A stretch of 64,000 nucleotides of DNA from Candidatus Bathyarchaeota archaeon (GTDB lineage: Archaea > Thermoproteota > Bathyarchaeia > Bathyarchaeales > Bathycorpusculaceae): contig JAOZHV010000026.1 of assembly GCA_026014725.1 (NCBI GenBank), forward strand, positions 248,001 through 312,000. The letters run 5' to 3'. The notes beneath the pieces were generated by a model. The model saw nothing but the letters and a program-made list of their open reading frames with translations. It was not told the origin of the DNA and did no database searches. Positions 30,731-59,926 of this stretch are shown here, one piece after another. The stretch's first letter is position 1. The number at the start of each line of letters is the position of its first letter. Both the position numbers and the translations under genes were made by a program.

Positions 30731-31276
30731 ATGAACAAAACTGACAAACAAATCGATTTAAAAAGCAAAGTTCGAAGAATCCCTGAGTTCAAAGGCGTGG
30801 TTTTCTGGGATATAACCCCACTTTTAAAAGATAAAGAATGCTTCAAACAAACCATCAAACAACTGGCAGACCACTACCGAGGCAAACCCATCGACGTAAT
30901 TGTTTCTAACGAGGCAAGAGGCTTCATCGTCGGCGCCGCTTTAGCTTACGAATTAGGGGTTGGTTTTGTGCCTGTGCGTAAAAAAGGCAAACTGCCCTAC
31001 AAATGCATAGATTTAACTTACAAAAAAGAGTATGAATGCGACACGATTGAAATTCATCAAGACGCCATCGAGAAAGGGCAGAACGTTTTGCTCATTGATG
31101 ACTTGCTAGCTACGGGCGGAACAGTAAAAGCCAATATTGATTTGGTTGAAAAATTAGGCGGCAAAGTAGTCGGCATCGGCTTCCTCATCGAGTTAGGCTA
31201 TCTGAATGGAAGAAAAGCACTCGGCAACAAATATGACATATACTCACTAATCGAGCTAAAAACTCCAAACGGGTAA
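30731..31276 (+). CDS. apt: Adenine phosphoribosyltransferase-like protein
   Basis: A 181-residue type I phosphoribosyltransferase. The PRPP loop is NVLLIDDLLATGGTVKAN. N-terminal VRRIPEFKGVVFWDITPLL resembles the APT start (xRxxPDFPxxGIxFxDITPLL), and SNEARGFIVGAALAYELGV, VPVRKKGKLPY complete the pattern. It would convert adenine and PRPP to AMP, matching the MTA phosphorylase upstream in the same operon (GGAG in AACAGGAGAAAAACTGAA before the ATG). Archaeal members may also accept other purines. Confidence 0.9.
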   Translation: MNKTDKQIDLKSKVRRIPEFKGVVFWDITPLLKDKECFKQTIKQLADHYRGKPIDVIVSNEARGFIVGAALAYELGVGFVPVRKKGKLPYKCIDLTYKKEYECDTIEIHQDAIEKGQNVLLIDDLLATGGTVKANIDLVEKLGGKVVGIGFLIELGYLNGRKALGNKYDIYSLIELKTPNG

Positions 31277-31292
31277 ACCCAACTTAAATTTA

Positions 31293-31430
31293 GGCTTGGC
31301 GGATAGAAAGCACAAGGCAAGCATCCATTCCTACTCCTACTTCCTTCCTCCCCGATGGCGAAAAACGTCAATGAATGGGCACATAGCTTTTCCTTGCGCT
31401 TTCGAAGCAAAAGCCAGTTTTCGCCAAGCC
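31293..31430. ncRNA. Candidate structured RNA with four nested helices
   Basis: A closing helix GGCTTGGCG/CGCCAAGCC (31293-31301 with 31422-31430) encloses GAAAGC-a-CAAGG/CCTTG-c-GCTTTC (31306-31317 with 31392-31403), CCATTC/GAATGG (31325-31330 with 31373-31378) and TGGCG/CGTCA (31356-31370). A pyrimidine-rich single strand (31331-31355) lies inside. On the minus strand a TTTATACA box (31466-31459) sits about 28 bases before the first helix. On the plus strand a T5 run follows at 31436-31440. Strand and family are undecided. Confidence 0.5.
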
Positions 31431-31558
31431 CCAGCTTTTTACAGCTGCCACTAAAAAGTGTATAAACGGAATTTTATAATGCTTTGTTGTTGCAACCTGA
31501 CAGCAACTCAGCTTTAATAGTGATTTTAAGCACACTTAAGTCAGTTGAGGTAAAAAGT

Positions 31559-31861
31559 ATGGAAAATGTTTTTGAAGAGTCCCACGCGGTCATAACAACG
31601 TCCTCTGTGGCAGATGCTATTCTTGAGAAACCTAAGAGGAGCGCTTTTGTTTTTATCACCGCTGAATCAGAGGCAAGCCAAGTGGCCCTTCATGATTTGG
31701 AGCTGATTGATGAAGTAGAAGAAGTGTACCTTGCCAGAGGTGCTTATGATATTGTAGCTAAAGTTAGTGGAGAATCCTTTGATCACGTACGAGAAATTAT
31801 TTGGAAGCGGATAAGGAGCCTTAGCAGTATTAAGGCAACATTAACCTTGACGATGATTTAA
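31559..31861 (+). CDS. Lrp/AsnC ligand-binding (RAM) domain protein
   Basis: A 100-residue protein consisting of a RAM domain without a DNA-binding part. Signature segments are AFVFITAESEASQVALHDLE, VEEVYLARGAYDIVAKVSG and a last strand SSIKATLTLTMI. Single RAM proteins bind amino acids or modulate Lrp-type regulators. I chose the ATG at 31559 with TGAGGT (31546-31551) upstream. An in-frame start at 31484 would add 25 residues of unlikely sequence. Confidence 0.8.
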   Translation: MENVFEESHAVITTSSVADAILEKPKRSAFVFITAESEASQVALHDLELIDEVEEVYLARGAYDIVAKVSGESFDHVREIIWKRIRSLSSIKATLTLTMI

Positions 31862-59611: not shown

Positions 59612-59926
59612 GGGCTGGCGTGTTGGTGTGTGGCTTCCGAGCCCAAAATTGCGGGCTTGAGGAAACTCCGCCCACATGTAGAATTGCAGTCCCTTAAGCG
59701 GACAAGTCGAGAGGCTTGGCAACGGAGCAGAAACGAAACGTCCAACTGGACTTGGCTATGATGCGTTTGTGACGCTGAGTGTGCCGGACTGGAAGCGGTG
59801 AAACGGCCGTCCTGCAAGTGGAAAGGGCAAACAGTCGCCGATGAAGACTCTACCGGAAGGCGCAGGTAGCCCGATTAGCCGAATGCCACAGCAACAAAAG
59901 GCGGGTTACGTCCAACACACCAGCCC
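59612..59926 (+). ncRNA. rnpB: RNase P RNA (archaeal type A)
   Basis: The catalytic RNA that trims tRNA 5' ends. P1 is a 15-bp helix: GGGCTGGCGTGTTGG (59612-59626) with CCAACACACCAGCCC (59912-59926). The universally conserved P4/CR-I core occurs as GAGGAAACTCCGCCCACA near 59659, and the matching distal P4 region near ACAGCAACAAAAGGCGGGTT (59889-59906). A central GAAGCGGTGAAACGGCC stem and a GAAGACTCTACCGG block are also typical. A CTTTAAGC element at about 59561 may be its promoter. Confidence 0.92.

Follow-up and report, generated by a model that had tools for sequence, protein, structure and literature searches.

What lies in the gap between apt and an AsnC-type gene in this Candidatus Bathyarchaeota archaeon, and from which strand is it read? 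Coordinates refer to the window, by which we mean the whole 64,000-nucleotide stretch of DNA that was analyzed. The gap is flanked on one side by apt (30731 to 31276; Pfam Pribosyltran match) and on the other by a plus-strand ORF that starts with the ATG at 31559 and encodes an AsnC ligand-binding domain; no match to a DNA-binding domain was found in this ORF, and the ligand domain stands alone. A preliminary description of the DNA proposed a candidate structured RNA here, possibly a new noncoding RNA (ncRNA), a proposal that is now backed by homologs, by covariation, and by the absence of an Rfam match. Our analysis points to a structured ncRNA of ∼160 to 190 bases, encoded on the minus strand in Bathyarchaeota, that looks like a small regulatory RNA. 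No coding frame across the element is open throughout in every copy (open stretches reach up to 57 amino acids). Its features are as follows.

31258 to 31448, minus strand: predicted ncRNA transcript, from the covariance-model match, TATA spacing, and T-run; the predicted 5′ end is at ∼31448 and the predicted 3′ end lies between ∼31290 and the T-run at 31258 to 31262
31471 to 31480, minus strand: TATA-like box of the ncRNA, from its spacing to the 5′ hairpin
31432 to 31447, minus strand: 5′ hairpin (helix 1), CAGCU...AGCUG, in 11 of 12 copies; absent from L048 (genome G017)
31423 to 31431, minus strand: closing helix P1, 5′ strand, from the alignment
31292 to 31300, minus strand: closing helix P1, 3′ strand, from the alignment (9 pairs)
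31392 to 31403, minus strand: helix P2, 5′ strand, from the alignment
31306 to 31317, minus strand: helix P2, 3′ strand (9 modeled pairs)
31386 to 31389, minus strand: helix P3, 5′ strand, from the alignment
31319 to 31322, minus strand: helix P3, 3′ strand (4 pairs)
31373 to 31378, minus strand: helix P4, 5′ strand, from the alignment
31325 to 31330, minus strand: helix P4, 3′ strand (6 pairs)
31357 to 31365, minus strand: apical-loop segment UUUUUCGCC, with its complement GGCGAAAA at 31418 to 31425; possible pseudoknot or alternative to P1
31331 to 31353, minus strand: purine-rich apical strand, with GGAGGAAG in 10 of 12 copies; absent from L047 and L048
31258 to 31262, minus strand: T5 run, candidate termination site within the apt 3′ end, from T-run conservation

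All four nested helices of the preliminary description are present. The closing stem is perfect over 9 bp (31293 to 31301 with 31422 to 31430; GGCTTGGCG/CGCCAAGCC), the third stem pairs AAGC (31319 to 31322) with GCTT (31386 to 31389), and the fourth pairs CCATTC (31325 to 31330) with GAATGG (31373 to 31378). The second stem (31306 to 31317 with 31392 to 31403), previously given as 11 bp with a single mismatched pair, does span 12 positions with an A-C mismatch on the plus strand; on the minus strand, the supposed mismatch is a G-U pair. The biased single strand reported inside the fold is also there (CTTCCTTCCTCCCC at 31340 to 31353). The extent of 138 bases was too short, having missed a fifth helix (31432 to 31436 with 31443 to 31447), and the RNA is therefore longer. 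In the conserved fold, which sequence comparison supports, a 5′ hairpin precedes a single long, irregular arm (P1-P2-P3-P4) that is capped by a large apical loop. Folding of the single sequence is only moderately unusual: 31286 to 31440 reaches -57.7 kcal/mol on the minus strand (z -3.10; 2 of 200 shuffles as low) and -44.4 kcal/mol on the plus strand (z -2.40; 5 of 200 shuffles as low). The comparative evidence is stronger.

Homology of the copies rests on DNA searches and on their common position beside apt. The DNA search, at E <= 0.001, recovered this place from 15 of 41 genomes; in some, the match covered the AsnC leader or the apt end only. A covariance model (R1) was built from 12 minus-strand sequences, and a search of the genus gave strong matches in 12 of 32 genomes (82 to 168 bits; E-values 1e-36 to 2e-16), scores that are high by construction because the same 12 carriers built the model; no carrier was added. 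The match in the present genome lies on the minus strand at G000:C26:279290-279459, which is 31290 to 31459 of the window. Each carrier genome has one strong copy, located between apt and the gene for the AsnC-type ligand domain; in G005, one further weak match (L049, E 0.1) is taken as chance. Wider scans with R1 used stricter filters, by which weak matches can be lost. Over the order (162 genomes) they returned the 12 genus matches and one weak match, in G152 (E 0.0035), which is about chance level over 162 genomes and aligns over the 5′-hairpin and P1 part only; this match was set aside. Over the class (256 genomes) there were 12 matches and over a phylum sample (398 genomes) there were 6, none of them outside the genus. 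Viral contigs held 0 exact matches to the element pattern. Among the eight records matched by the DNA pattern, six are Candidatus Bathyarchaeota and one is Crenarchaeota; Lachnospiraceae record L055, matched by the DNA pattern only and not by the model, is attributed to chance or binning. Across the genomes searched, the element thus appears limited to one genus.

The covariation check proposed earlier, run on the 12 homologs, finds compensatory changes above column-shuffle controls. Paired cells make up 97.1% (shuffled 95.2%; 0 of 500 as high), although cell counts overstate independent events because the 12 sequences are related. Changes on both sides occur in 7 pairs, most of them in P2, against a shuffled mean of 2.9 (2 of 500 as high), and the covariation score is 0.204 against 0.167 (0 of 500 as high); further pair types are less striking (23 against 20.6; 31 of 500 as high). 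Slid structures are at most 45.4% paired. By helix, P1 on the minus strand has 100% of cells paired, with G-U in 5 cells and a single change from C-G to U-A; P2 has 96.3% paired and both-sided changes in 5 of its 9 modeled pairs; P3 has 93.8% and P4 has 94.4%, with both-sided changes in 0 of 4 and 1 of 6 pairs, respectively. The complementarity of UUUUUCGCC and GGCGAAAA is seen in most copies. A pseudoknot between GGCGAAAA and UUUUCGCC was rejected; its covariation is within the range of the shuffles (59 of 500 score as high), and 81.3% of its cells are paired compared with 80.5% after shuffling.

The strand follows from the kind of variation that the helices tolerate. Read on the minus strand, a fixed 32-pair structure (379 cells) contains 336 Watson-Crick pairs, 32 G-U pairs, and 11 non-pairs; read on the plus strand, it contains 336 Watson-Crick pairs, 1 G-U pair, and 42 non-pairs, the underlying alignment having been fitted to the minus-derived model. 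RNAalifold gives the same trend (minus alignment, 35 pairs and -27.1 kcal/mol; plus alignment, 25 pairs and -19.4 kcal/mol). All five helices contain G-U cells. With 6 of the 32 in a single 5′-hairpin column, and with related sequences throughout, independent changes are fewer than 32. Sequence comparison thus supports encoding on the minus strand, a call that rests on the G-U bias, and we regard a structured minus-strand ncRNA as very probable.

The preliminary description was also right that a TATA-like box (ATTATAAAAT, plus-strand positions 31471 to 31480) lies on the minus strand at a plausible distance. Its center is 26 to 28 nt upstream of the first G of the hairpin (GCAGCT) in all 11 hairpin-bearing copies, L048 being without the hairpin; this spacing suits archaeal promoters. 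By eye, several of the nine syntenic non-carriers have an AT-rich box at the corresponding position with respect to the AsnC leader, though G024 and G043 do not clearly have one; the box may therefore serve the AsnC gene. At the other end, a T-run of at least 4 lies within 37 nt of the end of the model in 12 of 12 copies, which is not independent evidence because the run overlaps apt codons. A scan for bacterial-type promoters and terminators gave no match. The ncRNA would have its own promoter, be transcribed away from the AsnC-type gene, and stop close to the apt 3′ end or within it, on the antisense side. A riboswitch or cis leader was rejected: a minus-strand transcript would continue into apt in antisense orientation and would not form the 5′ leader of any same-strand gene. 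The palindrome GTTGTTGCAACCTGACAGCAAC (31486 to 31507), kept in carriers and syntenic non-carriers, looks like a shared operator; on one side of it is the minus-strand TATA-like box and on the other TTTAATA, on the plus strand ahead of the AsnC-type gene.

We favor, at a probability of ∼0.55, an independently transcribed, lineage-restricted archaeal sRNA, divergent from the AsnC-type gene and ending close to or within the apt 3′ end, that probably acts through its loop. Minus-strand transcription into apt could instead work in cis, as an antisense RNA or a terminator or roadblock that controls mRNA ends or stability, with the fold mainly stabilizing the RNA. Such an arrangement would suit an element that begins ∼10 to 35 nt after the apt stop, has apt adjacent in 12 of 12 carriers, and has its candidate T-run inside apt; a pure antisense effect, however, would need neither a conserved apical purine stretch nor five helices, and we consider it unlikely. 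The distribution of the two also differs, apt being present in 31 of the 32 genus genomes and the element in 12.

We inspected 30 apt loci by eye (G020 yielded no locus). Twelve carry the element, nine have apt beside the AsnC leader without the full element, and nine do not show the AsnC neighbor, one of them (G010) because the contig ends. Part of the genus can therefore dispense with the element. In one syntenic non-carrier (G001, L079), only the 3′ half of the element survives after apt, as a remnant (local alignment score 49; the best of 500 shuffles scores 26). Carriers group together on the APT tree (3 changes against a shuffled mean of 9.7; 0 of 500), although the support of most forks is weak. 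In G023 (L076, ∼1765 to 1865), another long inverted repeat, AGGCAACCTCCGAAAACC ... GGTTTTCGGAGGTTACCT, lies downstream of apt at the position that the RNA takes in carriers.

If the favored sRNA is a trans-acting regulator, its arm would present the GGAGGAAG purine stretch to pyrimidine-rich sites, either mRNA leaders or the 16S tail; base pairing through the loop is a tentative proposal. The earlier suggestion that the biased strand might pair with anti-Shine-Dalgarno (anti-SD) or SD sequences can be narrowed, the minus-strand apical loop being SD-like and not anti-SD-like; counting against the mechanism, most loops pair with an anti-SD 10-mer at only ∼-10 kcal/mol compared with -15.9 for a full SD. 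The fold does not need GGAGGAAG, since the divergent copies L047 and L048 are without it. By sequence, its GG runs could form a putative two-tier G-quadruplex. The loop might also bind protein: archaeal Lsm proteins bind U-rich RNA, and in 10 of 12 copies the apical loop carries five or more consecutive U residues ahead of the purine stretch (L045 and L048 have 4 U), as would suit a sponge or scaffold within an RNP. The U-run could pair with GGCGAAAA instead, however, and we judge an RNP role rather improbable.

For the favored loop-pairing sRNA, targets were sought with one 14-mer loop complement at <=1 mismatch in 10 of the 12 carriers, G045 and G017 being left out as their loops differ. It occurred at 20 places, 8 of which are the element itself; 11 of the other 12 lie within long reading frames, and one (L096, in G011) lies before an ATG. 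The G011 site matches the 14-mer exactly and the 20-nt loop complement at 19 of 20 positions, lies ∼30 nt ahead of the start codon (ATG) of a gene for a winged-helix regulator, and is partly retained in the sister genome G018. Orthologs or paralogs of this regulator occur in 26 of 32 genus genomes; most of the leaders read are rich in C and U whether or not the genome has the RNA, and CTCCTT often precedes an AAGGAG-like SD in them, which suggests that the leader may mask its own SD. One such gene, L111 (G000:C49:4908-5834), with its relatives L109 to L126, has a CU-rich leader and TATGACGCGTGTCA-type repeats upstream. The loop-leader duplex beats shuffled leaders in G011, G018, G015, and G000 (0 to 2 of 300), is intermediate in G013, G006, and G009 (5 to 21 of 300), and is not beyond shuffles in G022, G005, G017, and G045 (33 to 123 of 300). 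Matched duplexes barely differ from cross-species ones (means -23.7 and -22.3 kcal/mol; 11 of 12 carriers). The winged-helix leader is a lead only, and we are doubtful that a new sRNA family uses an SD-like loop to pair with CU-rich, SD-masking leaders, free the ribosome site, and activate translation.

Two further readings fare worse. A plus-strand 3′-UTR element of apt, offered as an alternative in the preliminary description, would lie directly after its gene, and its folding energy is lower than that of most shuffles (z -2.40); it is disfavored because the variable pairs break on the plus strand, turning A-C (42 non-pairs against 11), whereas the minus strand reads them as G-U, and we hold it very improbable. 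A DNA element without RNA, such as an inverted-repeat operator or mobile-element remnant, is scarcely credible: an operator-like palindrome adjoins the element (31486 to 31507), but there is one strong copy per genome, and G-U type changes suit one strand only and are not expected of a DNA palindrome.

The structured minus-strand ncRNA has no counterpart among the Rfam families searched. The proposed Rfam check covered 4227 families over the window, none of which reaches its gathering threshold at the element; a low-threshold scan of 31150 to 31600 gave two sub-threshold, chance-like matches only, and scans of the 11 other carrier loci gave no match on the element. Archaeal SRP RNA resembles the ncRNA in its long irregular arm and purine-rich apical stretch; its family (RF01857) does not match here, and the SRP RNA of this genome lies elsewhere (G000:C59, 140.1 bits). 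The window also contains an archaeal RNase P RNA (59618 to 59920, 177.6 bits). Searches for Bathyarchaeota noncoding RNA and Bathyarchaeia small RNA returned, by title and the start of the abstract, no article about the element.

A possible parallel is sRNA162 of Methanosarcina mazei, described as pairing through a single-stranded linker with a transcription factor mRNA and as also affecting its cis-encoded neighbor (PMC3510493). Both are archaeal sRNAs, the present one by prediction; here, the exposed strand is purine-rich and lies in an apical loop, and the target is a candidate. Comparative genomics has yielded many candidate structured RNAs described as narrow in range and of unknown function (PMC2864571). 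Like these, the present RNA is recognized by conserved structure and covariation; unlike them, it comes from Bathyarchaeota and has no Rfam model match. The structured minus-strand ncRNA is narrow in range, well supported, and apparently new; if the reading is true, an uncultured archaeal class would gain a new ncRNA family.
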